Below the pieces are notes generated by a model. That model was not told where the DNA came from. It made no database searches and saw only the letters and a list, made by a program, of their open reading frames with translations. Shown in pieces: positions 1,044-20,937 of a stretch of DNA of 20,937 nucleotides. Source of the DNA: a virus; the IMG/VR virus record IMGVR_UViG_3300007539_000284, positions 1 to 20,937 of that record. One strand, given 5' to 3'. Every line of letters begins with the position of its first letter. Position 1 is the stretch's first letter. A program made the translations under genes and the position numbers.

Positions 1044-4000
1044 CTAGTCATCTCCATTCTTACAAGGTGCAGGTCTCAAGGAACTCCATTGCCACCACTT
1101 AAGCCCTGGGTTCAGGTCTGAATTAGAGCCTAAGTTGTCAATGTAAACCTCAGATGGATTCATGTAGTCCTTATCCCTGTAATCGTAACTAGTATAACAA
1201 GCAGCTTCTAATGTCTGTCTGGCCACTAATTTTGTATTTTTGAAGGAGTTTCTCATCCCCTCGTTACCACGCCAAGTGTTCATACCTCCATTCTTCCCTA
1301 GGCCGATCCAGCGACCACCACCTCTTTGGTTGTCGTTTGCCGTCGCAGCCCACCCATCTTCGACTCTGGCAAGGGAGGGCACAAATGTGTTCGCGCAGTA
1401 AAGAGCGAGTAAGTCCATGTATTTCGGCATGGGATAACAATGCTCAAACAAGGTTCTGTATTCTGGCGTTTCAACTAACAAGCATACCAAATCTTGTAAA
1501 TAATCATTATAAAGGCCCGCCTCGTAAGCATCGGCTGTTAACTGTATCTCTGCCGATGCCAATGGAATTACATTCTTATATATATCGCTAAATGCCTTGT
1601 GGGTGTAGCCAGTTTCATTTGGTACATCTGACAGAGCATCCGACATCTTGTCTGTAAGGCTTGAAACCCTAGCTGCACTTGGAACAAAGCTGATTCTTAA
1701 TCCAAAGTATACCTCGTCTTCTGCTAGAACTTCGCCTGTGTAAGCTGTCTGGGCGTCGAAGATATTGGAGACAAACCCGAAAAGCTTGAAAGTATTAGCC
1801 GTGTCTGTGGAGCCCTTGGAAACTAGGTACCTCTCAAGAACGAATGGGGCATTGGAATTGCCAATTAAAATGCTTGGTAAATCATATGGATGGATAGCAG
1901 CAGACACATCAGCGGCAAGAGACTCATAATAAGCAGCATTTGGCACGTCATACGGGCCTTCTTCTGTCGTTCCAATAGAACCACGAACAATGGTTGGGCT
2001 CTTCAAAATAACATCGTTAATATCACTGAATTCAGGATTGATGCTTTCTGAGAATATTTCTGTTGTCCTTGCATACTCGTCACGAATGTAGCGTCTAAGT
2101 ATAGTCTTGCAGCGCGATATAACAGGCGACTCGATAGCTTCTGGTAAACCAGTAGTCGGATTAATCCCGGTTGTGCTTTCAAAAATACTATCCCAGTTTT
2201 CTTTCCTACGCTTAGCAAGCCTTCTTGCAGAGCTTAAACCAGTAACCAACCCAGGAGGAATGTAAACCCAGTTATCCTCTACAAACTGGTTAATAAAATC
2301 TAGGGCTTCTTGCTCCTCAGGTGTAACATCTGTTATAATACCTTGATTAACTTTTATACCAAAGTTTTGAACAACTTGCTCTAAGAACAGCCACCAATAA
2401 TCTTCGTATTTTGGAACAAAGCGTTTGCCACGACCCACGTCTTTCATACCCTGCTCCATCTTGTCTATCACAAATTCAGATAACATATCGCCATAGTTAA
2501 ATTCTGATAGCGCCAGGTATTGCAAAACTGGGAGACTCTTCATTAAAACTTCGACAACATAAGTTCTTATTGTAGCGTATATTGTGCCTTCAATTATACC
2601 TAGAGAAGCCTTCGAAAGGTGCCTATCAAAAGGTAGTTCTCTGCCTTCGCTTACACCCTTGACCTTAAGGCCAGCCCTTTCATCCATGGGAATTTGAGAA
2701 CTAAATTCAGAACATACAGATTTTAGTGACGAGAAGTCTGGGAATGTGACGACATCGTTGCTGTCCTCGCAGGGGTTAAACTCAGGAATAATTTTCTGTG
2801 CTATTCTTAGATAGCCCTTGTTCATCGGCTGCTTAAGATAGAAAGGAGGATTTCCTTCAGAGCCACCGTATCTTTCAACGGCAGCCCCAATATCACCGCC
2901 AAACTCCTCTTCGTGGAAGTATTTTATAATCGGTGGTTTAGTGGCGTCAAAGCCATAGACAAACGGAGAGTCATCACTGTCCTCCGCAGCAACCAGTTCG
3001 GCCAAGCCCTCTAGAATTCTCTGGCTTGTCTTTTCAAACCCGGTAACCATAGGAGCCTCAACAGAGCCGTATCTTGTTTCAAATTCAGGTGTTCCAGCCG
3101 CGTCACCCCTAGGTGTATCTGGCTGCCCCAAGGTAGTATAAACACTATTCTGGACAAGAGCTTGGAAAGTAGAATCTGGACTAGATGAACCATCAATGTA
3201 ATACTCACTCAATATGTTGCTCTTAAAGTCTGAGACTGTATCGTCTACGGAGGACACAACGTTGAAAAATGCTATTACTTCCTCGTATGGGTCGCCACCT
3301 TCGTCTTTCCAGTTTTCGTTCTTCATATTTATTCTTAATCTATGCCCGTCCCAAGAATGTAGTTGTCCCTCAGGTGGGGTCGTCCAATAATCAAAACTAA
3401 ATGTAAATTGCATGGTATCTGGGTTGTCATAATCAAACCAGAATAAGTTAGTAGTATATCCTGAGTCCACGCTGTAAGGGGCGCTTAGCGTTATCAGGCT
3501 ATCTTGTAAATGCCCTGCAACCTTATCTGGTAGGCCGCCTAATGCTGGTGCCCTACCAGAAATTTCGTCTCCATCAGAATTGTTTCCGGTATTTTCTTCT
3601 GTTTCGCCGTCGCCTGTTGAGGATAGAGGGTTAAATAAGAATGGTAGCTTCCACAAATTACCTTCTGTAAATTCTCTTGGCCCTGTTACCCAACTATTGT
3701 GGTCCTTGGGGGATCCTGCGCCGTCTCCCCACTCATCTCTCGGTGGATAAGCTCTGGTGCCACGAGAGCCATATATATTTAGAACGGATGGCCCCAGGAT
3801 AGAATTCTGGAATCCTAGGTGCTGTCTATATCCTCTGCCTCTAGAGTCAGCCAGAACCATGTTTAAAAACCCTCTTTTACCAATAATATCCTCGGTAAAA
3901 GACAGGGACATTGTATCAAAAACGTTATTGTATATATTCTCTAGTGCGATTGTGTCCATCGGCATTTCGGAGGGTAGAAGACCTGGCTTGTCACTAGTTG

Positions 4001-7000
4001 GGTCCTTCATGATATCCGGAAGCACACTGTTGAAGATGCCAGCTTGTAGCAAGCTCATGAGGTCTTCTAGGTCGGCTACAGTCTGATCTCTTAGCACGCA
4101 TAGCTGATCCTCGATGCATCCCTCATCAACTCCCTTAGCGCGTAACGCTTCTGCTCTCGTAGCACGGAATACGTTAAGGAGGCCCAGATTATCACAAACT
4201 TCTCTAGAAACAGGTAGGTTTGTTGGGTTCTGGATACAAAGCTGCTCAAGATCGACAAAGACACCTATCGCTTTGAAGAATTCATGTACCGAATCTCTGT
4301 CAAATAGGCATTCTGTTAGTGTTGCTGTAACGGGATCAGTTCTAACAATTTCCACTATAAGGTCGTAAAGGTTGTCAGATCCCTCTCCGTTTATAAGATC
4401 AACAAGCTCACACTGTGTTACCACAGCCGCTACATTGTCCACTAAGCGGCCCATAGCGACCGCATCGGTGTAGCACCCCCTATTGGCTAGAAGATCTGTC
4501 AGAGCGCCGTCTACAAGCTCAGGGTCGATATCAGCATTGCCACATAGATTAGCCTTTAGGGCGTCTCGCAGGTTGAGGGGATCTGGTCCTCTCCTAGTCT
4601 TACAAAGTTCTTCTGCTATAATTTCCAATATTTTCTTTAGGATAAGGATGAGCAGGCGAATAAGAAGCTCCTCTAGAACCCTTAACGCATTATCAATTAG
4701 TGTTTTAGAAATACTATTGAACCTTATCTTAGGCAAGACAGGGATTGTAATGGAAGCCTGAAGTTCGCAGAAATCTATATTAACCCCAGGTAATTTAATG
4801 AATTCTTTTAGCGGTGGGTAAAAGAGCGGAGGCGCAATACAGAACTTATCTATCTTCTGCAAGATGTTGATTGCAATTCCAGCACCAGGAAGGTTGTTCA
4901 AGACATTTAATATTTCATCTAGATTTAACAAGTCGTTGACAACAAGATCATAGATTACATCTTTTAGTTGTCCATAGTCTTGCGGAGTTGCTGCTCTTTG
5001 TTCTCTACCCAATGATCCAACTTGGGCAGGTGGATCACTTAAAGATAACTCAGTCGTTACAGACCCTGGCGTTCTTGTTACACCAACAACAGCCTGGTCT
5101 CCCAAAGAGCCTAGTGGAACGTCTTTACTAGTGTAGCTGCTCTGCCTGTCGTATACTGGCTCTATGACGGCCCCGCCATCATCTAGGACCGTGACAGTGA
5201 CAAAGCCGGCCAAGAAAGGAAGCAGCTGCGGCGCGACTTCATTTATGGAAGCTATAATTACTTCCTGCGCCTCGGGTGATAAATTATTAATAAACTTTCC
5301 TATAAATTCATCATCCATACCCTTTACTGCTGCACCAACAATTAATGTAATTGCGTCGTCATACCCAAGAGCGTTTAAGATACAATCAACTGCAGCCTTG
5401 ATAAGATCAATCAAGCCACACATTCCTAGATTGTTTAGCATCCCTCCGTATAAATCACTTAACTCTTTATATCGCCCTCTTACCAAAAGCTCTGGTAAGT
5501 CATTGATAAACCTGTCGCTTGTTAGATATTCCTTTAGGGTCATATCTGTGATTTGAAGAGCGAAATCCGTCCTACCCTGATGCTCTAAAATCTTTCCATC
5601 AACAAGGGCACATGGGTTTGAGCTAAACTGAGATAGTAGTGCTCCCTTAATGTCGTTAATTTGGCTCTCCGCCCACTTCTGTCTTTGAATTGAGCTTCCA
5701 AATAGATTTGGTTCAAACACTCCGCTCGATAGCCCAGAAGCGCAGATCTCCTGCTCCAATTGCTTTATTGACTCGTTGCCATCTGCTACTGGTGAAGAGT
5801 TGTCTAGACCGTAAGTCTCTTCAATCTCTGGAAATCTGTACTTGTTTAGGATATCATACCAAGATACAGCTTCCCTAATCATCAAGTCGTTTTTCATGTT
5901 AGGTAGCTGTGATACATAAGCAGCAGTTGTCTTGTCGTTCATGGGAGAACGATTTATAAATGAATTAAAGCCCTTTTCTATCTGGATTGGAGAAGAGTTT
6001 TCTTTTTGCACTTTTATGTATTCGACTGCAAACTCTGGGCTAAAGCCAATCTCAATCCACTCTAGGTCTCTAATATCGTAACCCGACTCTCTCAGCAGAA
6101 GGTCAGTCTCCTTAAAGAAGCTCTCAATCCTCTTGGATTCTGTTGAAAAGTTTAAGCCCTTTATAGTCTTTCCTGTGTCGAGATGCCATTGGGCATAAAA
6201 CCTATCGTAAAGCCCAAATGCATAACTAACTTTATCAAATATATCTTCCATCTCTTGTGCCTTAAAGACTACAAAAGAGCGTTCCCCGGAGGAATAAGCA
6301 GGGGTAGGAGTACCCTCTTCAACCTTTGGCTGCCTCTCTGGTATCCTGTTGAATTCTTCAGCAGACACCGTAATCAAAACTTTTGTTTTTGCCTTTGGCC
6401 TAGGGGGGATATAGAATGTCTTCACCTTTGCGGTTCCAACAAAAGCGAGTCCGTCAAGGTACAGACCTTCACTGCCATTCGTTAGGGCGTCTCTAGATGA
6501 TAACGTTCTTTGGAATCCAGTTGTAATATTTGTAAATTCAGAATTAACTTCCTTGTTGTAGTAGTCAAGTAGCTTATTCAAAGCGTCTGGGATAAAAGTA
6601 TTGAAGTATTCTTCACTGCAGCTTGGAGGATCCGCCAGCATAACTATAGAATATTCACAAGTCTTCTGGTTTAAAAATGGCTCATCTTCTGATTGGTTTA
6701 GCCAGTTTGGGACTACAGCATCTGGATTTGGTATACAGCTCTGGTACGTCTCGACAAATACTTCCTCTCCGTCACCTAAGTCTCTGCACTGTCCGGGGTT
6801 AGCGTTACCAGGCCCAAGAGTAGGCAGCTCAGAATCTAACTCCACTGCCTCGCAGCCATAGCCGTCAGCCCCCCTAAGCAGTATCGCTTCGTTAAGCGCC
6901 TCGGTAGAGAGGGAGATAGAAGTGCTATGAGCCTCAAGAAAAGAATTCCAGTAGTTGGTTACCGTATAATCCAGAGTATCCACAAGAGGGTTTTCGTCAA

Positions 7001-8279
7001 AATAAAGCCTGTCTGCCATGGCTCTAAATATTTTTATATTACATTCGTTTGTTGTAAGTTCAGCGTCCGTGAAAGATCCGCCGTAAGGGGGGCTTCCGCT
7101 ACAAGCGTCCACGGATGTAGGGGAGCGGCCTGCGCCGGAAAAAACTTCAGATATAAATTCACTTCCGTCAACCGGCCCTAAACCTGCAGAATCTAAGATT
7201 TCAAGAGCCTTTTTCAGCCAGAATAAAAAGGCGTTGTAATCGGCATTCTCTATTTTAACAGAATGGCCAGACGGAGCATAGTGCAGTATCTGGAACGCTG
7301 TTGAACTTATAGCGCCACCAGATTGGCCATCGCCATCAAGGTTTTTTCCTCTAGGTTGTATAAAATCTACCTCATCATCAATAGAACTAACTGTATGGCC
7401 TACACCACCAACTGGCATGTACCTCACTCTGGCTGGGGATGAGGGGGGATTAAGGGCCCCGTTCCAAACGGAGTTATCTCCCGTATCTGAGCCTGCCCCT
7501 GACAGAGAATTGCTAGATCCTAAGCCAAGTTGTGTTCTTTCGCCATGACCCTCCGACCCTAATAGATCGTTTACCTCATACCCGTACCAGAACATTTGGT
7601 TCCACGTAAATGGATCCATGTCTGGCTTGAGAAACTCTCCTCCCTTTTCATCATGAATATGCAAGAACCCAGCTAAAACTTCTAGTATAAAGCCAAATTG
7701 CAAATATCCTTCTAACAACAAGGCAGTATCTTTAAGTTCTAGTTTTCCCGATGTCCAGTTAGTCCATGGGTTATCCCTTCTAGGGATGTCTCCTCTATCC
7801 TGCTCAGTGTACCTAGTTTCTCTTAGTTGAAGCATCGGATGAACTATTAGCCCACCTGCTATGTCAAGCCAACCATCGTTAGCCCCCGTAGTATTCTTCC
7901 AATGTCCAGTTTGATAATCGTCAAAGGCATCCCATTTTGGCCCTTTTATATAAAAAGGGAGAGCCGTATCCCAATTTGTTATATTCCTGGCGTGATCGAC
8001 GTTAAGATTATTCCATGCATCTCCACCTTTCCATATTCCTATTTTCGGGTCTACGTTGCTTACTGCTCTGTTTTGACCGTCATCCACAGAGTTCCAGCTT
8101 CTACTTCCCGTACTGCTATTTCCGCCACCTTGTGTCCCATCTTCAAAAGGATTTTTATCTCCGCTAGGTCTAGAGAGATTCTCTGTTCCATACTTTGACT
8201 TAAAAGAATGGATTAAGTTTCTAGCATAAAAGATAAATGGATCACCTTCAAATATTGCAATTTCTGGACATGTTGGCAT
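1044..8279 (-). CDS. Giant virion structural protein candidate (2411 aa), baseplate-associated
   Basis: A single uninterrupted frame of 2411 residues, ATG at 8279 preceded by AGGA about 7 bases upstream. I do not recognise a catalytic domain. The N-terminal 300 residues are rich in Gly, Ser, Asn, Asp and Trp, as in surface-exposed beta-rich virion proteins. Residues about 950-1040 and 1190-1225 are hydrophobic and helical; the latter includes RLLILILKKILEIIAEEL. The C-terminal half returns to polar, aromatic-rich sequence. I count about 30 cysteines spread along the chain, many for a protein made in the cytoplasm. It lies between the spike gene and gp25, so a role in the baseplate or its periphery is inferred. 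T4-like marine phages carry large virion proteins near gp6 and gp25, some annotated VrlC; I cannot confirm homology. A tape-measure role is less likely because the chain is not a long coiled coil. Confidence 0.75.
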   Translation of the reverse strand: MPTCPEIAIFEGDPFIFYARNLIHSFKSKYGTENLSRPSGDKNPFEDGTQGGGNSSTGSRSWNSVDDGQNRAVSNVDPKIGIWKGGDAWNNLNVDHARNITNWDTALPFYIKGPKWDAFDDYQTGHWKNTTGANDGWLDIAGGLIVHPMLQLRETRYTEQDRGDIPRRDNPWTNWTSGKLELKDTALLLEGYLQFGFILEVLAGFLHIHDEKGGEFLKPDMDPFTWNQMFWYGYEVNDLLGSEGHGERTQLGLGSSNSLSGAGSDTGDNSVWNGALNPPSSPARVRYMPVGGVGHTVSSIDDEVDFIQPRGKNLDGDGQSGGAISSTAFQILHYAPSGHSVKIENADYNAFLFWLKKALEILDSAGLGPVDGSEFISEVFSGAGRSPTSVDACSGSPPYGGSFTDAELTTNECNIKIFRAMADRLYFDENPLVDTLDYTVTNYWNSFLEAHSTSISLSTEALNEAILLRGADGYGCEAVELDSELPTLGPGNANPGQCRDLGDGEEVFVETYQSCIPNPDAVVPNWLNQSEDEPFLNQKTCEYSIVMLADPPSCSEEYFNTFIPDALNKLLDYYNKEVNSEFTNITTGFQRTLSSRDALTNGSEGLYLDGLAFVGTAKVKTFYIPPRPKAKTKVLITVSAEEFNRIPERQPKVEEGTPTPAYSSGERSFVVFKAQEMEDIFDKVSYAFGLYDRFYAQWHLDTGKTIKGLNFSTESKRIESFFKETDLLLRESGYDIRDLEWIEIGFSPEFAVEYIKVQKENSSPIQIEKGFNSFINRSPMNDKTTAAYVSQLPNMKNDLMIREAVSWYDILNKYRFPEIEETYGLDNSSPVADGNESIKQLEQEICASGLSSGVFEPNLFGSSIQRQKWAESQINDIKGALLSQFSSNPCALVDGKILEHQGRTDFALQITDMTLKEYLTSDRFINDLPELLVRGRYKELSDLYGGMLNNLGMCGLIDLIKAAVDCILNALGYDDAITLIVGAAVKGMDDEFIGKFINNLSPEAQEVIIASINEVAPQLLPFLAGFVTVTVLDDGGAVIEPVYDRQSSYTSKDVPLGSLGDQAVVGVTRTPGSVTTELSLSDPPAQVGSLGREQRAATPQDYGQLKDVIYDLVVNDLLNLDEILNVLNNLPGAGIAINILQKIDKFCIAPPLFYPPLKEFIKLPGVNIDFCELQASITIPVLPKIRFNSISKTLIDNALRVLEELLIRLLILILKKILEIIAEELCKTRRGPDPLNLRDALKANLCGNADIDPELVDGALTDLLANRGCYTDAVAMGRLVDNVAAVVTQCELVDLINGEGSDNLYDLIVEIVRTDPVTATLTECLFDRDSVHEFFKAIGVFVDLEQLCIQNPTNLPVSREVCDNLGLLNVFRATRAEALRAKGVDEGCIEDQLCVLRDQTVADLEDLMSLLQAGIFNSVLPDIMKDPTSDKPGLLPSEMPMDTIALENIYNNVFDTMSLSFTEDIIGKRGFLNMVLADSRGRGYRQHLGFQNSILGPSVLNIYGSRGTRAYPPRDEWGDGAGSPKDHNSWVTGPREFTEGNLWKLPFLFNPLSSTGDGETEENTGNNSDGDEISGRAPALGGLPDKVAGHLQDSLITLSAPYSVDSGYTTNLFWFDYDNPDTMQFTFSFDYWTTPPEGQLHSWDGHRLRINMKNENWKDEGGDPYEEVIAFFNVVSSVDDTVSDFKSNILSEYYIDGSSSPDSTFQALVQNSVYTTLGQPDTPRGDAAGTPEFETRYGSVEAPMVTGFEKTSQRILEGLAELVAAEDSDDSPFVYGFDATKPPIIKYFHEEEFGGDIGAAVERYGGSEGNPPFYLKQPMNKGYLRIAQKIIPEFNPCEDSNDVVTFPDFSSLKSVCSEFSSQIPMDERAGLKVKGVSEGRELPFDRHLSKASLGIIEGTIYATIRTYVVEVLMKSLPVLQYLALSEFNYGDMLSEFVIDKMEQGMKDVGRGKRFVPKYEDYWWLFLEQVVQNFGIKVNQGIITDVTPEEQEALDFINQFVEDNWVYIPPGLVTGLSSARRLAKRRKENWDSIFESTTGINPTTGLPEAIESPVISRCKTILRRYIRDEYARTTEIFSESINPEFSDINDVILKSPTIVRGSIGTTEEGPYDVPNAAYYESLAADVSAAIHPYDLPSILIGNSNAPFVLERYLVSKGSTDTANTFKLFGFVSNIFDAQTAYTGEVLAEDEVYFGLRISFVPSAARVSSLTDKMSDALSDVPNETGYTHKAFSDIYKNVIPLASAEIQLTADAYEAGLYNDYLQDLVCLLVETPEYRTLFEHCYPMPKYMDLLALYCANTFVPSLARVEDGWAATANDNQRGGGRWIGLGKNGGMNTWRGNEGMRNSFKNTKLVARQTLEAACYTSYDYRDKDYMNPSEVYIDNLGSNSDLNPGLKWWQWSSLRPAPCKNGDD

Positions 8280-12338: not shown

Positions 12339-13583
12339 CTAGCCCCTTCCTACTGCGATATACGTAACATCTGGAGCGCTAGGAATGTCCATACCCCAAG
12401 GATCAATCACCACTGAATTCGGAGGGAATACGTAGTCCTTAAAAACATCATGATTCGTGCCTATAAAGAATACGGCTGGGCTCTGTAGTGGCGGGTTTCC
12501 AGAGTCAACCCAGGGATCATACATCTCTACAGGGAAGCGGCCTTCTGTTAAGATGTTCTTGAGCAGAATTGAGGGGCTACCTACAGTTAGGTTTGTCTCT
12601 TTCTTGAAGCACTTCCCTAGAATTACTATTGGAAGATCAGTTCTGCCGTGAGCATCGATTACAAGCTCAGCCAACCAATCTGTTTGTCTTTCGCGACAAA
12701 TCATCAAGTTCTCATACCAATCGTAAGAAAGATCAATCTCCCTAGCTAGCCAACTAAGAGCAATGTTGTCTCTTGGGTGGCAGCCACCGCCATCACCCAT
12801 CCCGCCTAGGAGGTACTTTGTGCTAATCAGCCTCTCGTTTGCCATGAAAAGACCTCTCATGACGTTATCACAGTTGATGTTGTCCATCTTATGCGATACT
12901 TCCATAATGGTATTGGCAAGACAAATCTTCATAGTAATGTACGTGTTGTAAGAAACCTTTATCATCTCAGCTTCTTCTATTGTACACTTATACACTGGCC
13001 TGTCATGAATTGTAGAATAAAACTTTGAAGCTGTCTCGTATGCCTTTTCGTCATCCATGCCGAAAAGGACGAACTCTGGACTGGTAAAATCCTTGATTGT
13101 TGTACCCATTGCGATAAAGAATGGATTATAACAAAGCTTGACATGCTTGCTTAGAAGTGGTTTTATCTCTCTTCTTATCGTACCAGGAAGAACAGTAGAG
13201 ATAATAACTACAATCTTGTCCTGCCCTTGGCGTTCTATCTCTTCAGACAGAGTTCTGATACCAGACTTTAGCCATTCATAATCAAAGTCCACCCGCTCCT
13301 CTGGGAGTCTGGTTACACCCTCATACTTTGGGTTGTGCGGCGTCTGGATTGGAACAAATATGATTTCCGAGTTTCTTACCAACTCTGGGACATCGGACCA
13401 TTGTATATTGTGGTTGTCCAGTAGCTCTTGCGCTCCCTCTTCTCTATAGGGAAGAGCTTTGGTATCAAGTATGTTTTTTACCTCTTCACTTATGTCAAAT
13501 CCATAAATTGTATGCCCTGCTCTTTCAGCAGCCAGAGCACATGGCAGGCCAAGCTTACCAAGGCCCATAAATCCAATATTCAT
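12339..13583 (-). CDS. UDP-glucose/GDP-mannose dehydrogenase family enzyme
   Basis: A 414-residue protein, the usual length for this family. The N-terminal NAD-binding Rossmann motif GLGKLG is at 7-12, with D30 at the end of the second strand. ISTVLPGT at 129-135 is the conserved central loop. The catalytic block GGGCHPRDNIAL has its cysteine at 268 and aspartate at 272; K209 and N213 in MIKVSYNTY match the family's active-site Lys and Asn. The C-terminal UDP-binding domain has GKCFKKETNLTVGSPS. Such enzymes oxidise C6 of a nucleotide sugar twice, giving a uronic acid donor. The family usually has GxAFKxxTxDxRxSP here; NLTVGSP departs from it, so the substrate may differ. AGGAGA precedes ATG 13583. 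It probably supplies a sugar for the neighbouring transferases. Confidence 0.92.
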   Translation of the reverse strand: MNIGFMGLGKLGLPCALAAERAGHTIYGFDISEEVKNILDTKALPYREEGAQELLDNHNIQWSDVPELVRNSEIIFVPIQTPHNPKYEGVTRLPEERVDFDYEWLKSGIRTLSEEIERQGQDKIVVIISTVLPGTIRREIKPLLSKHVKLCYNPFFIAMGTTIKDFTSPEFVLFGMDDEKAYETASKFYSTIHDRPVYKCTIEEAEMIKVSYNTYITMKICLANTIMEVSHKMDNINCDNVMRGLFMANERLISTKYLLGGMGDGGGCHPRDNIALSWLAREIDLSYDWYENLMICRERQTDWLAELVIDAHGRTDLPIVILGKCFKKETNLTVGSPSILLKNILTEGRFPVEMYDPWVDSGNPPLQSPAVFFIGTNHDVFKDYVFPPNSVVIDPWGMDIPSAPDVTYIAVGRG

Positions 13584-13591
13584 AAAATCTC

Positions 13592-14431
13592 CTAGTTATC
13601 TAAATAAGATAAAGTATTTTTTACTATTTCTTCTTGCTTATAACGCATATAGTCAATTAAGTCAAGACCTTTTTTCGAAAACCACTCTTCATGGATAGCT
13701 CCTATATTATTTGTGGTCTTTGTACCCATCCCCATCATCCTAGCCTCTACGACGACCCTAGACAGCGTCTCAGGGGTCCCAGGAAAGAAGACTAGTGTAG
13801 AGCGAGCGCCAAGCTCCCTAAGGAACGTAGAGGGCTCTAAAGGTGGTATCACATCATATTCCAAACCAAGAGTTCTACAATAGTCAATAGCTCTCGCAGT
13901 ATTCTTGTGCTTAGTATTCGACATTATTACTGCATGTCTGTTTTGTCTTTGCGGATTTCTGCAGATTTCCTCTAAGATAGACAAATGGTCATCGGACCAC
14001 AGATTACCGCCTAAACTTACAATATTATCTAGTTCAAGATTTTTTCTTGCTATGCTTGCATGAAACTGGCTCTGGCACAGAACGGCCTTCGCATTTGCAT
14101 AAAATTGTCTATTGATAATATGTTCTTTAGGGGCATGGTACTCTGGGTAAATGCCTGGGTTCCTACCAGGGAGATACTTGTGATCGTGCTCATAAATGAT
14201 ATAGTTTCTATTTTGTAGATCTTTTTTGTTTTCTTCAGAGAGATTAACAAAATTTGAAACAATAATGTTCTCATTGTATAGCAAATCCATGTGTGTAACG
14301 AGGTGGCTATTAAATCTACGAACAGTGTGGCCACGCTTATAAAGCTTCTCTATCAAAACTTTGTTATTTAACTCTCCCCCTCCAGGCACCTGGTCTGCAA
14401 AGAAGTCCGCTATGAATAGTATATTACTCAT
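13592..14431 (-). CDS. GT-B glycosyltransferase, short GT4-like
   Basis: The frame extends upstream to 14608, but ATG 14431 begins MSNILFIADFFADQVPGGGELN, the N-terminal strand and glycine loop of GT4 enzymes, and leaves only an 8-base overlap with the preceding gene. The extra 59 residues would be a basic, arginine-rich out-of-place leader. The 279-residue product is short for a GT-B enzyme (usual 350-400). The C-terminal donor-site motif is visible as FPGTPETLSRVVVEARMMGM, with E221 and E229 spaced as the family's E-x7-E. HDHKYLPGRNPG is a plausible acceptor loop. Donor and acceptor are unknown. It lies in the same run as the two other GT4-like genes. Confidence 0.82.
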   Translation of the reverse strand: MSNILFIADFFADQVPGGGELNNKVLIEKLYKRGHTVRRFNSHLVTHMDLLYNENIIVSNFVNLSEENKKDLQNRNYIIYEHDHKYLPGRNPGIYPEYHAPKEHIINRQFYANAKAVLCQSQFHASIARKNLELDNIVSLGGNLWSDDHLSILEEICRNPQRQNRHAVIMSNTKHKNTARAIDYCRTLGLEYDVIPPLEPSTFLRELGARSTLVFFPGTPETLSRVVVEARMMGMGTKTTNNIGAIHEEWFSKKGLDLIDYMRYKQEEIVKNTLSYLDN

Positions 14432-15659
14432 TGACAACAACTTGTGGGGGCACAAATTCAGGCATTGCAACAGAATCCGCAAAAAGCTTATGCTGCTTGT
14501 CAGAATCAAACTGCTGTAGAATCCACCTCTGTAGCTCCTTCGCTTTCTTCTTCCATTTGGCCCAACTCTTTCTAGTCTGTCGTAAGCGCATCTTGTAATG
14601 TCCCTCATGTGGGTAACACCACATACTGTCTCTCTGGACTACCCCGTCCCATACGGCTGCTTCGTGAACAGGCGCTATGTCGTAGTTTACATCAGCAAAC
14701 ATGGCCTTTCTCTTGCCATTGGGATATGTAATGTACAAGAAGTCGCACTGCCCAGACCAAGAAGGGGCAATAACGGGAAGTCCGTGTCGTGCTGCGTCGA
14801 ACATAGGCAGGCCAAAGCCCTCACCATGACTAAGGTTAATCAGAGCCTTGATTTGCTTATGGACGTAGACAGACTGCATCTGGTCCTCGGAAAGGTCTCC
14901 GTGAATAAGGTAAACTTTACACTTTGCCCCTTCTGGCCTGCATGCGTTTAATAGCTTAGACAGGTTATTGCTAACGTGCTCTCTATCCATAATAGAGTTG
15001 TTCTTTTGGGATGTTTTTATAATCAGCCCAACTTCTTGATCCCAGTTCTCTTCTACCCACCACTTGATTGCGTTCTCAATATTCTTTCTGGGCCCCCATT
15101 GAGAGACAAGAAGATAGTTGAAGTCATAATCTAACTCGATACCTAGGTCTGCATGCTCAACAGTCTTAACAGGGTAGTGGACAATCTCAATTGGAGTCTC
15201 GCACTTTAGTGTCATTGGTTGTTGAGTCATTTTATTGATGCCCTGATAGGACGTATTTTCAAAGACGCTCTTAGCGTGCTCAGATATAGTAATGACCTTG
15301 TCCATTTGATTTGCTTTCTCAAGCCAAATAGGGGCAACCTTGGTTGTTTCAATGCCAGCAGTTACACCAACATTATAAGGTGCTAGTCTCTCCCATTCAT
15401 TAGGGATGGAGACTTGTATTGACATGTCAAACTGACCACCGGATTGCACGTACTGATGAGTTTTCATGACAAGAGAATCCATCCATCGGCGCTCCTCAGT
15501 GTTCTCTGAAAGCCATCCCGTTTGGCCCCAATTCAGAGCTATGAGATATACGTCAAACTGTTCTGGCTGTCCCCTTAGGGCTCTAAGCAAAAATCTTGTG
15601 TGCTCGCCGTAGCCTGACTGCGTTAGTGCTGGTCCTCTAACTAAAACTTTCTTAATCAT
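14424..15659 (-). CDS. GT-B glycosyltransferase, GT4-like (second of the cassette)
   Basis: A 411-residue protein. N-terminal GPALTQSGYGEHTRFLLRAL fits the GT4 acceptor-side loop. VSQWGPRKNIENAI at 185-198 is the usual inter-domain start of the donor domain, and INLSHGEGFGLPMFDAARHGLPVIAP holds the donor motif with E280 and D288 (E-x7-D, slightly off the common E-x7-E). Residues 364-395 are very basic and aromatic (KMRLRQTRKSWAKWKKKAKE), which could bind nucleic acid or an acidic polymer. The ATG overlaps the TGA of the preceding transferase as ATGA, so the two are probably coupled. The sugar and target are not known. Confidence 0.88.
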   Translation of the reverse strand: MIKKVLVRGPALTQSGYGEHTRFLLRALRGQPEQFDVYLIALNWGQTGWLSENTEERRWMDSLVMKTHQYVQSGGQFDMSIQVSIPNEWERLAPYNVGVTAGIETTKVAPIWLEKANQMDKVITISEHAKSVFENTSYQGINKMTQQPMTLKCETPIEIVHYPVKTVEHADLGIELDYDFNYLLVSQWGPRKNIENAIKWWVEENWDQEVGLIIKTSQKNNSIMDREHVSNNLSKLLNACRPEGAKCKVYLIHGDLSEDQMQSVYVHKQIKALINLSHGEGFGLPMFDAARHGLPVIAPSWSGQCDFLYITYPNGKRKAMFADVNYDIAPVHEAAVWDGVVQRDSMWCYPHEGHYKMRLRQTRKSWAKWKKKAKELQRWILQQFDSDKQHKLFADSVAMPEFVPPQVVVNE

Positions 15660-16912
15660 ACTATCTCCCTAAAGTCCCAAGATTTATACCCTTCGCGCTC
15701 TTCCCAAGAGCCATGCTGCTCATATGCCTCTAGCATAATATCAACCCAGCCCTGACAATACTTCTCAAAACTGTAGTTTTTCTCTACGTGCTCCCTTCCC
15801 TTGAGCCCAAGCTGCTTTCTTTCAGAGCTTGACATCTCGTAGATACGGTCTAGGGCAACATGGAAGTCCTCCTTACTAATCCTGTCTTCGTAGATGTATG
15901 GAACTTGCTGGGAGCCGATGACTGCCTTAGAGGCAGGCTGTATGCCTACGCCGAACCAGTCCTCCCCATCTGTCACCTGCTCCTGCAGCCCTCCTGTCAT
16001 GTTGACAATGATTGGAGTCCCGCAAGAAAGAGACTCAAGTGTTGCTAGTCCAAACCCCTCAGCGTCTGAAATATTTATAGTACAGTCAACCATGTTATAC
16101 ATACTGGCTAAGATTTCTGGTGGGACTTTCTTATTTGACAATAGGATTGTACCGTCGTTGCCAAGACGCTCTATAAGGTGCTCTAGGGGTTGTCCATGGA
16201 CATCATGCGGGTCTGTATGCATGATGAGGCACACCTTGTCTCTACCAACCTTCTCGGCCCACTCGTTGAACCAGAAAACAAGAGAACCACTCTGCTTTCT
16301 TCTTGCGTTCCTATTGTTCCAGAAAAACACTACCTTATCTTTATTGCCCTGTAGGTTCTTTTCCCTCATGGAGTCTATCTCCTCCTGAGAAACTGGCTTA
16401 AATATAGCAGGATCAACCGCATGGGGGTGGTAAATGTTCGCCACTTCTGGCGCAGCTTCCGATACAATTTCATGTGTAACCTTTGAAATGGAGACAATTA
16501 AGTCGTTTGATAAATAAAATGGCCTATTGAAAAAGGGTGCTGGATGATTGTCCCACACATGGTAATAAACCATAGGCATGATGGGGCGCACCTCATTCTC
16601 AATAAACCATAGCCACTCGTAAAATCGTGGGTCAGTCATAAACCATAGGATATCTGGCTTCTCATTCCTGATGATTGACCTGATCTTTTGGGCATCACCA
16701 TAGCCGTCAATCGGTATGACCGTCCAATCTTCTTCATATGGCGCTATCTTCTGTGGAGTGTAGTCTTTATGCTTTACCGCTCCTCCAAGACATATAAACT
16801 GAAACTTGCCAGTCTTCAGAAGTGCCTCAATAAAATATTTTGTTTGAGTGCCAACTCCGGAAGGTGACATAGGATGATCCGATAAAGTTAGGATCTTAAT
16901 TTTCTTTGTCAT
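15656..16912 (-). CDS. GT-B glycosyltransferase, GT4-like (first of the cassette)
   Basis: A 418-residue protein with an ordinary GT4 layout. The N-terminal strand KIKILTLSDHPMSPSGVGTQTKYF has the glycine-rich loop; the mid-protein FFWNNRNARRKQ stands at the start of the donor domain; NISDAEGFGLATLESLSCGTP carries E285 and E293 in the E-x7-E donor motif; and TGGLQEQV follows. The start ATG 16912 is preceded by TGAGGTTT, in which the stop codon of the nuclease gene forms part of the ribosome-binding site. It opens the run of five sugar genes. Donor and acceptor are unknown. Confidence 0.9.
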   Translation of the reverse strand: MTKKIKILTLSDHPMSPSGVGTQTKYFIEALLKTGKFQFICLGGAVKHKDYTPQKIAPYEEDWTVIPIDGYGDAQKIRSIIRNEKPDILWFMTDPRFYEWLWFIENEVRPIMPMVYYHVWDNHPAPFFNRPFYLSNDLIVSISKVTHEIVSEAAPEVANIYHPHAVDPAIFKPVSQEEIDSMREKNLQGNKDKVVFFWNNRNARRKQSGSLVFWFNEWAEKVGRDKVCLIMHTDPHDVHGQPLEHLIERLGNDGTILLSNKKVPPEILASMYNMVDCTINISDAEGFGLATLESLSCGTPIIVNMTGGLQEQVTDGEDWFGVGIQPASKAVIGSQQVPYIYEDRISKEDFHVALDRIYEMSSSERKQLGLKGREHVEKNYSFEKYCQGWVDIMLEAYEQHGSWEEREGYKSWDFREIV

Positions 16913-18635: not shown

Positions 18636-19991
18636 CTAAAGCACCTTAGCCGCTAATGTAGCAACCTCAGATCTCTCACCCTTTCTGAGGGTAATGTGTC
18701 CTGTTATACTGTGGAATTTCATTTTCTCTACGGCGTGAGTGAGGCCAGAAGACATTTCGTTGATATAGATATTATCGATCTGCTCAATGTCGCCAGTCAA
18801 AACAATCTTTGTACCTTCTCCGACTCTTGTCAGGATTGTCTTAACTTCGTGGGCCGTAAGGTTCTGTGCTTCGTCAATGACAATGAAGGCATTGGCAATA
18901 GAGCGACCACGAATGTAAGTTAGTGCTTCCATTTCGATGATGCCGCGCTGCATGTACTCATCAAGAGTTGTTTGGTCATCCCCTGTGAGAAACTTCAAGT
19001 TATCCTGTACTGGGGCTAGCCAAGGGGCCATCTTCTCTTCCATCGTGCCAGGGAGAAAACCTATGTCCTTACCCATGGGCATAACGGGCCTAGAGACGAC
19101 AAGCCTCTTGTAGGTAACATCACTGGAACTCGCCTCCTTGAGGCCATACTTCACATCAGCAGAGGCCATTACCTGCTCTAAGCCAGCAGCAATAGCTATA
19201 AGGGTCTTACCAGAGCCAGCCTTGCCTACTAGGGACACAACCTGCACCTCTGGATCCATAAGGAGGTCTATGGCGAACATCTGCTCCTTGTTCCTTGGAC
19301 TGACGCCCCACAAGCCATTCTTGAACTGAACAACTGGTAGTAGTGGGAACATGTAATCCGTGAAACGGCAGAGGGCCGTTTTCTTTTCGCTAGAGCTTGA
19401 CACCAACATTAAAAATTCATTTGGGCACAGACGTGGATTCTCTTCTTCCGAGATCTTTATCTTATCTCCAGCGTAGAACTGATCGATTGTTTGATCATCT
19501 ACAAGAATAGTAGAAAATCCATTGTAAAGTTCTGATTCTCTCTTTATGATTTCATTTTCAGTATAGTCTTCACTGATAATACCTAAAGAGTCACAGATGA
19601 CTCTCATGTTTATATCACGACTTACAAGTATAGTCTTTCTTGAGCCGTTGAGAATATCCTCATTTAGGGCTGTAGAGATTATTTCATGGTCCGGGACTCT
19701 AAAGTCTAAGTCCTTTGGCAGGCACTTTGGATCGCCACCAGAGACCTTTAGTATGCCCTTGCCCTTAGCAATTCTGAGCCCCTTTTGTAGGGATCCCTTT
19801 GCCCTTAGCTCATCAAGAGAGCGGATAATCATTCTAGCATTTATCCCTACGCTATCTTGCCTTTTCTTATGCTTATCAATTTCTTCTAGAACTTTTAAAG
19901 GTAAAACAATATCATTGTTTCCATAATTGAAGATGCAATCAGCATCGGTCAAGCACACACTCGTGTCAAGCACGTAGGTTCTTTTCGCCAT
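18636..19991 (-). CDS. phoH: PIN-PhoH fusion protein (PhoH2-like ATPase)
   Basis: A 451-residue protein with two domains. Residues 1-140 are a PIN nuclease domain: D9 in YVLDTSV, E36/E37 in LEEIDKHKKR, and D126 in LVSRDINMR supply the acidic site. Residues 230-451 are the PhoH ATPase: Walker A GKAGSGKT at 256-263, the family block RPVMPMGKDIGFLPGTMEEKM at 301-321, Walker B FIVIDEAQN at 369-377, and LTGDIEQID. PhoH2-type proteins have been described as RNA helicase/ribonucleases. Many marine phages carry only the PhoH half; the full fusion is less usual. AAAGGAAA precedes ATG 19991 by about 7 bases. It may act on host or phage RNA during infection. The link to phosphate starvation implied by the name is not supported by anything visible here. 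Confidence 0.95.
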   Translation of the reverse strand: MAKRTYVLDTSVCLTDADCIFNYGNNDIVLPLKVLEEIDKHKKRQDSVGINARMIIRSLDELRAKGSLQKGLRIAKGKGILKVSGGDPKCLPKDLDFRVPDHEIISTALNEDILNGSRKTILVSRDINMRVICDSLGIISEDYTENEIIKRESELYNGFSTILVDDQTIDQFYAGDKIKISEEENPRLCPNEFLMLVSSSSEKKTALCRFTDYMFPLLPVVQFKNGLWGVSPRNKEQMFAIDLLMDPEVQVVSLVGKAGSGKTLIAIAAGLEQVMASADVKYGLKEASSSDVTYKRLVVSRPVMPMGKDIGFLPGTMEEKMAPWLAPVQDNLKFLTGDDQTTLDEYMQRGIIEMEALTYIRGRSIANAFIVIDEAQNLTAHEVKTILTRVGEGTKIVLTGDIEQIDNIYINEMSSGLTHAVEKMKFHSITGHITLRKGERSEVATLAAKVL

Positions 19992-20466: not shown

Positions 20467-20763
20467 TTACTGATTTGTAAAAAATTCATTTAAGAGCCTA
20501 TTGGTATAATGGTTTTGATCCACAGCAGTCTTCTTTCTGTGACAGTTAGCACATCTAACTTCACACTTTGCAGCTTCTTTTAGAATTGAATCCCAAGAGT
20601 ATTCTTTTCTCAAAAGCGTACTTATATTGTGCTTTTTGTTGTTGATGTGATCGAAGTCCAGAACTCTAGGGTCCGTTTCCCCACAATCAACACATGGATG
20701 CTCTTTATAGAACTCCATCATTTTTCTTTTAATATTCTCTCTTCTTTCGGCGCGTCTTTCCAT
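20467..20763 (-). CDS. HNH endonuclease, free-standing
   Basis: The 98-residue product starts at ATG 20763, with AAGGGG 10 bases upstream; a TTG at 20820 lies too close to the only GGAGGT (which belongs to a hairpin) to be preferred. Residues 1-22 are basic and helical. The HNH core is complete: C24-C27 (CVDCGET), D38-H39 (LDFDHINNK), N46, and C71-C74-H75 (VRCANCHRKK). The two CxxC pairs bind structural zinc and the DH plus final H form the metal site. Such genes are common in T4-like phages as homing endonucleases next to tRNA genes. Here it follows the tmRNA end. It is followed 14 bases later by the membrane protein gene. Confidence 0.92.
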   Translation of the reverse strand: MERRAERRENIKRKMMEFYKEHPCVDCGETDPRVLDFDHINNKKHNISTLLRKEYSWDSILKEAAKCEVRCANCHRKKTAVDQNHYTNRLLNEFFTNQ

Positions 20764-20818
20764 TACATAAGTTCCCCTTAAGGTAGACTTATCTGTTTTG
20801 ACACTATCCGTCAAGATC

Positions 20819-20860
20819 AAAACCTCCGTGCTCTATTGGTAAATAGTAAGCTACGGAGGT
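20819..20860 (-). terminator. Terminator-like hairpin after the tmRNA
   Basis: An 8-base outer stem (ACCTCCGT/ACGGAGGT, 20822-20829 with 20853-20860) encloses a GCT/AGC step and an inner CTATT/AATAG stem. On the minus strand the hairpin is followed by only four T residues (20822-20819), so it is a weak intrinsic terminator or a processing or protection hairpin. It separates the tmRNA from the HNH gene. The stem contains GGAGGT, which could be mistaken for a ribosome-binding site. Confidence 0.5.
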
Positions 20861-20902
20861 ACTCATGACCTATTTTCTAGTTTCTTAGAGTAATTTTAAG
20901 GA

Positions 20903-20937
20903 TGGAGATGTCGGGAGTCGAACCCGAGTCCAAAGCA
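20903..20937 (-). ncRNA. ssrA: tmRNA (ssrA), 3' end only; 5' part off the right edge
   Basis: On the minus strand the edge reads GGAC, then a T-arm with 5-base stem TCGGG/CCCGA and loop TTCGACT, then CATCTCC A. The acceptor half CATCTCC would pair with the GGGGATG-type 5' end usual for tmRNA, and the sequence before the T-arm (TTTGGAC) is the common tmRNA pattern. The 3' CCA is not encoded: TCC follows the discriminator A. The T-arm is a universal tRNA feature, so an ordinary tRNA is possible, but the GGACxCGGGTTCGACTCCCG form favours tmRNA. tmRNA rescues stalled ribosomes. The rest of the gene is outside the window. Confidence 0.8.

Follow-up and report, generated by a model that had tools for sequence, protein, structure and literature searches.

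What gene ends at the right edge of this viral DNA, and what would a phage gain by carrying it? The window, meaning the whole stretch of DNA analysed, spans 20,937 bases and makes up one complete IMG/VR record. A preliminary description had seen a tmRNA-like 3' end with no encoded CCA at 20903-20937. With relaxed thresholds, the tmRNA family RF00023 matches window positions 20900-20937 on the minus strand (model positions 337-374, 37.0 bits, E 2.6e-13). The match stays under the 47-bit gathering score because the window contains just about one-tenth of the gene, and for the same reason no tmRNA was listed in the window by ARAGORN or by Rfam at its gathering threshold. From 20937 to 20903, the minus strand is composed of a tmRNA T-arm (T-stem TCGGG/CCCGA, loop TTCGACT), the 3' strand of the acceptor stem (CATCTCC) with U70, and the discriminator A (A73). 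TCC follows at 20902-20900, where an encoded CCA tail would be. The same 35 bases end a complete tmRNA in L005, the corresponding locus of a near-identical contig, and there too they are followed by TCC; the 5' part of the one-piece gene lies beyond our record. An exact 32-mer from the fragment occurs in five viral (IMG/VR) stretches, 5/5 inside tmRNA genes (four standard and one permuted), and a 29-mer occurs in four bacterial stretches, 4/4 inside tmRNA genes. The RF00023 match and these nine exact-match stretches confirm that the last 35 bases of the window are the 3' end of a tmRNA gene, and the absence of an encoded CCA holds as well.

The 5' nine-tenths of the gene, beyond the window, were taken from that near-identical phage. 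Its contig G005 (70,814 bases) aligns over 20,937 of 20,937 window bases with 99.861% identity, 29 mismatches, and no gaps. Past the window end it runs on into a complete standard one-piece tmRNA (110 bits, cutoff 47, model positions 1-374), which according to ARAGORN has 351 bases up to the discriminator (L005 7915-8265). The sequence to the right, which the preliminary description had proposed to obtain and search, could therefore be read from this contig, and the predicted tag is ANNNNYELALAA, a normal tag with a hydrophobic, AA-type end, whose frame lies outside the window. The GGGGATG of the G005 tmRNA pairs with CATCTCC at seven of seven positions, and G3 is present. The T-stem, U70, and A73 are present in the window itself. 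The G3-U70 pair and A73 are alanine identity elements.

Since the gene in G005 is complete and in one piece, the window fragment is not a piece of a tRNA, of a permuted gene, or of an attachment site, and each of these readings meets further evidence of its own. A T-arm and an acceptor stem alone are common to tRNAs, and an ordinary tRNA gene with a cloverleaf of about 75 bases had been named beforehand as the outcome that would speak against a tmRNA; however, every viral and bacterial exact match lies in a tmRNA gene, and ARAGORN, run on all of G005, called the 351-nt tmRNA alone and not a single tRNA. The tRNA reading is refuted provided that the two phages do not diverge past the window edge, and we put its probability close to nil. 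The fragment might instead belong to a permuted tmRNA in two pieces, as is reported of the marine phage Melnitz; it would then be the 3' half, and the 5' half would lie downstream in the window. A weak match to the permuted model RF04321 at 20808-20933 (19.9 bits, E 0.052) and the permuted gene in L002, which has the same 32-mer, speak for this reading, but the match is far below the 47-bit cutoff, what would be its 5' half coincides with the downstream hairpin and the HNH ORF, and the gene of G005 has standard order with a fully paired GGGGATG/CATCTCC stem, which leaves a permuted gene very improbable. Equally slight is the chance that the fragment is a piece of host ssrA, kept as attP or gained by faulty excision. 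Integration into ssrA genes is known, and prophages can contain ssrA fragments, according to the available text of PMC9004378 and PMC11915505. Against this stand the completeness of the gene in G005, its conserved slot, and its co-inheritance with PhoH, as described below. In addition, a phage integrase was found in neither the window nor G005 and in one of 51 records, many of them fragments; that record is the one with the permuted L002 gene and was not found through PhoH. The integrase search, like those for SmpB, the CCA-adding enzyme, and gp23, covered 50 or 51 records, a set apart from the 33 surveyed last.

The tmRNA is followed downstream by a hairpin, an HNH ORF, and a phoH gene, all on the minus strand. 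The hairpin ACCTCCGT...ACGGAGGT at 20822-20860 is a possible terminator or processing stop; the fold of 20810-20937, taken whole, has a z score of -3.27, with 0/200 shuffles equally stable. The HNH endonuclease noted earlier as a neighbour is real (20467-20820, PHROG 2255, E 1.5e-25, no Pfam match), though its true start may be an internal ATG. Close relatives of this ORF, sought by tblastn at E<=1e-3, are found in 3/80 PhoH loci (L013, L010, and L015), and L015 has no tmRNA match. Judged by these close relatives, the HNH gene is hence not tied to the tmRNA, and we rejected it as a homing partner. The PhoH-like ATPase with a PIN domain at 18636-19991 (PF02562, E 2.9e-50; PF13638, E 2.3e-25) serves as the syntenic anchor. 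The T4-like assignment of the genome is upheld by baseplate families of gp6 and gp25 type and a weak late-sigma match (E 1.2e-4) within the window, together with a gp23-type capsid in 10/51 records, including the relatives G010 and G013; gp23 was not found in the window or G005, both of which are fragments. The T4 late promoter TATAAATA was sought in the 90 bases that precede the tmRNA and was seen in 0/38 phage loci. Elsewhere on the minus strand of the window, a single ORF of 2,411 aa occupies 1044-8279 in the baseplate region, and a UDP-glucose/GDP-mannose dehydrogenase and a glycosyltransferase, possible sugar-modifying genes, lie at 12339-16912.

We then inspected how widely the gene occurs among related phages. 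A PhoH search yielded 401 loci, of which the best 80 were kept, and with three records found via the 32-mer alone the survey comprised 83 distinct records, all searched whole with RF00023. Matches over the cutoff occur in 32/50 and 10/33 records, or 42/83 in total, and many records are short, so that absence there means little. Among the PhoH-found records the count is 40/80, which omits the three tmRNA-selected ones: G001 and G003, both over the cutoff, and the permuted G002, under it. At E<=0.001, under-cutoff matches add four records in the 50-set and seven in the 33-set; those of G019, G045, and G047 are tRNA genes and that of G002 is the permuted gene. Hence tmRNA, which the preliminary description had called uncommon in phages, is not rare in this group. 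Nor is it essential to the group, as half of the 80 records have none over the cutoff and some of these are long; RF00023 matches nothing in G014 (163 kb) or G017 (128 kb).

The position of the gene is also conserved. ARAGORN found a tmRNA in 27 of the 80 PhoH loci, 27/27 in the same orientation as phoH and at a distance of 912 to 4,742 bases upstream of it; three genes found by Rfam only (L009, L047, and L074) bring the in-locus cases to 30. Within 6 kb of phoH, the tmRNA is always upstream and on the same strand. The remaining tmRNAs are mostly 7-12 kb upstream on the same strand, and that of G044 is about 61 kb away. In 30/30 in-locus cases, a homologue of one conserved gene of about 120 aa lies upstream of the tmRNA, with a gap from the tblastn match end to the tmRNA of -5 to 485 bases (n=29; about 50 in L074). 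The G005 copy of this gene has no PHROG or Pfam match, and the L044 copy has a sub-threshold winged-helix match. The same gene is found without an in-locus tmRNA in 15 further loci, ten with no RF00023 match at all (L011, L012, L015, L017, L018, L031, L076, L078, L084, and L085) and five with under-cutoff matches only (L060, L061, L063, L081, and L082). The tmRNA thus resembles a module that is gained or lost at a fixed slot, and its presence or absence there offers a clean setting in which to ask how ribosome rescue of its own benefits a virus. In a set of 30 distinct tmRNA genes that could be paired with a PhoH, tmRNA distances correlate with PhoH distances (r 0.67, 0/9,999 permutations as high), which argues that the gene mostly descends with the phage. 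The one-piece tmRNA is therefore a common, mostly vertically inherited gene across a broad, metagenome-known T4-like group, and not a stray host fragment.

The anatomy of the gene was compared across 30 distinct ARAGORN phage tmRNAs, a set that includes L001 and L003 and excludes the permuted L002. This stem, tag, and CCA set and the overlap set leave out L009 and L047, the PhoH-tree and distance sets leave out L001 and L003, and the tmRNAs of L072, L074, L079, and L083 are in none of them, nor in the wider overlap count given below. The acceptor stem pairs in 210/210 cells (shuffle mean 194.8, maximum 202, 0/10,000 as high), a result partly built in because ARAGORN selects genes with good stems and tags. 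Acceptor pairs 5 and 6 show G-C/A-T swaps, and four of the five T-stem pairs vary with pairing always kept. G3-U70 is found in 30/30 genes and the discriminator A in every row listed. The predicted tags end in AA in 30/30 and in LAA in 26/30, and start with AN in 28/30. The Rfam-only genes of L009 and L047, which ARAGORN missed, also pair fully (7+5), and their tags, read by eye, end in ALAA. The tmRNA at L001 4032-4431 has an unusual predicted tag, GNSHRNIISLYNERKAA.

The missing CCA named in the preliminary description is common in tmRNA genes. An encoded CCA is present in 15 and absent in 15 of the 30 distinct phage genes, and the distance set likewise gives 15/30; among bacterial control tmRNA genes it is encoded in 10/34 and absent in 24/34. 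These 34 controls are the 30 best-scoring of 61 genomes from one phylum plus the four genomes with the 29-mer. On the PhoH tree the CCA state changes three times, compared with a mean of 10.3 and a minimum of 6 in 1,000 shuffles, and on the tmRNA tree six times; in the PhoH-tree clade of the window, CCA is absent in 9/9 tmRNA-bearing rows. G010, whose tmRNA has no CCA, encodes it in 2/5 tRNA genes. The missing CCA is thus ordinary and says little about the host. The family of the CCA-adding enzyme (PolyA_pol) was found in 0/50 related records, many of which are fragments, and with no CCA encoded, host enzymes would therefore finish the tmRNA, in line with the earlier proposal. Comparison with bacterial tmRNAs, which had been expected to name the host, did not do so through either the 3' end or the tag. 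The 29-mer matches fall in one Chlorobiaceae MAG, two Mycoplasmopsis, and one Patescibacteria genome, which are too scattered, so we claim no host; the tag ANNNNYELALAA occurs in 0/34 bacterial control genes.

Taken together, a T4-like phage very probably carries a complete standard ssrA that would be matured and charged by the host and would tag via ANNNNYELALAA, and the window ends in the 3' end of this gene. Identity of the gene, its anatomy in the near-identical contig, its synteny, and its inheritance, largely with the phage backbone, are directly supported; expression, processing, charging, and tagging are what we infer from sequence. tmRNA is the bacterial RNA that frees stuck ribosomes. 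RNase P cuts it, alanine is attached to it, and it moves into ribosomes that have stalled (PMC3985003, available text). For the phage gene, host RNase P would cut the 5' end of the transcript, the host would trim the RNA and its nucleotidyltransferase would add CCA, and host AlaRS, recognizing G3-U70 and A73, would charge it with alanine. Host SmpB and EF-Tu would then bring it into ribosomes stalled on broken mRNA, where it would add the degradation tag ANNNNYELALAA. The SmpB family was found in 0/50 related records, many of them fragments, and host SmpB would therefore be needed for the predicted trans-translation. The phage probably has a lytic life, and the benefit would most likely be that ribosomes are kept in service while mRNA degrades during infection. 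Stable, abundant transcripts of T4-infected E. coli include host SsrA, which in the speculation of the authors keeps ribosomes available (PMC9697503, in part); the Melnitz authors suggest upkeep of the hijacked machinery or tagging of host proteins (PMC9004378, in part). Alternatively, the phage tmRNA might mainly counteract host tmRNA, either as a decoy or as a dominant inhibitor, for example by titrating SmpB; a molecule like the tmRNA of phage DS6A, which consists of the tRNA-like domain only, reportedly inhibits tmRNA, perhaps in this way (excerpts of PMC4131195 and PMC11915505). A decoy, however, needs neither full length, nor conserved tag frames, nor alanine identity elements, all of which these genes have, and we regard it as unlikely.

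The start of the tmRNA has a feature of its own. In G005, a DUF2061-type ORF (73 aa, E 2.5e-7, L005 7729-7950) has its stop codon ending at tmRNA base 36, and in L010 the homologous ORF stops 218 bases short of the tmRNA. Counting G005, 12 of 30 distinct ARAGORN phage tmRNA genes are entered by an upstream ORF with a length of at least 50 aa. In 11/12 the stop codon ends at +27 to +41; the overlap in L027, with the stop at +99, is probably spurious. Among these upstream ORFs, at least three different proteins can be told apart by eye. Another case is the Rfam-only gene of L009 (region L094), and a wider count gives 13/36 rows, of which four are bacterial with 0/4 running in. In L006 and L016, the upstream stop codon ends at the base just before the tmRNA. 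Among tRNA genes not preceded by another RNA gene, the frequency is 3/51 (5/68 in all), and the Fisher's p of 0.0002 for 12/30 versus 3/51 overstates the case because the phage loci are related by descent. An open ORF of at least 50 aa also runs into 3/34 bacterial control tmRNAs and into one of three isolate-phage tmRNAs (Kumao, with no gene annotated there).

As the upstream ORF ends inside the tmRNA, RNase P maturation could strip its stop codon and leave a nonstop mRNA that the same tmRNA would tag, a self-coupled loop that would require the ORF and the tmRNA on one transcript. The main rival is simple gene crowding in a compact genome. The overlap cases share descent in part, and we hold the loop to be rather unlikely. 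In E. coli arfA, RNase cleavage removes the stop codon of the mRNA and tmRNA then handles the product (PMC3985003 and PMC10107115, available text). Different from arfA, which is cut internally by RNase III, the putative cut here would be made by RNase P as it matures the tmRNA, and we found no description of such an arrangement in the titles and abstract openings of the papers listed by a literature search. If the loop exists, the upstream protein would be low while trans-translation works and would accumulate once rescue reaches saturation. That upstream genes overlap the tmRNA start repeatedly suggests a regulatory loop that can be tested cheaply.

Phage tmRNA as such is already known, and the present gene joins these cases. 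In the available text, PMC9004378 counts 402 of 18,146 phage genomes with tmRNA, and PMC4131195 lists mycobacteriophages, Bxz1 and Wildcat being named, and Bacillus phage G. Mycobacterium phage Kumao and Streptomyces phages Jay2Jay and Tomas have the same one-piece standard order as our gene and likewise no encoded CCA (3/3); the tag frames read ANSNVAFALAA in Jay2Jay and DNSNVAFALAA in Tomas. Whereas the one-piece tmRNAs named above belong to phages of actinobacteria and Bacillus, the gene described here occupies its own conserved slot in a T4-like group. It shares all model parts of RF00023, the alanine identity, and the LAA-type tag with bacterial ssrA, but is virus-borne. Methylophilales phage Melnitz and Pelagibacter phage Mosig are, as here, tailed phages with T4-type features and a viral tmRNA, according to the accessible parts of PMC9004378. 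There, however, the Melnitz tmRNA is reported as two-piece (permuted), whereas ours is one-piece, and both phages are reported with a glutamine riboswitch, whereas no riboswitch family exceeds the Rfam cutoff in L001-L005 (stretches of about 9-14 kb). No tmRNA is reported for the T4-like phage pf16 in the available text of PMC5587285, and PMC10132071 and PMC3037559, as far as accessible, mention tmRNA just in methods or references. PMC phrase searches found no report of tmRNA in this phage group, although a report worded differently could have escaped them; how broadly one-piece tmRNA occurs in the T4-like group, and the overlap pattern, may be new.

Permuted tmRNAs were also met along the way. 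L002, in record G002, has a permuted gene whose 32-base 3' end is the same as that of the window, and the record carries an integrase. Others, over the Rfam cutoff and at places with no annotated tmRNA, lie in three isolated phages, S-CRM01 (L117, 2465-2686), Alcaligenes phage vB_Af_QDWS595 (L118, 1437-1784), and Acinetobacter phage BUCT628 (L119, 1418-1722).
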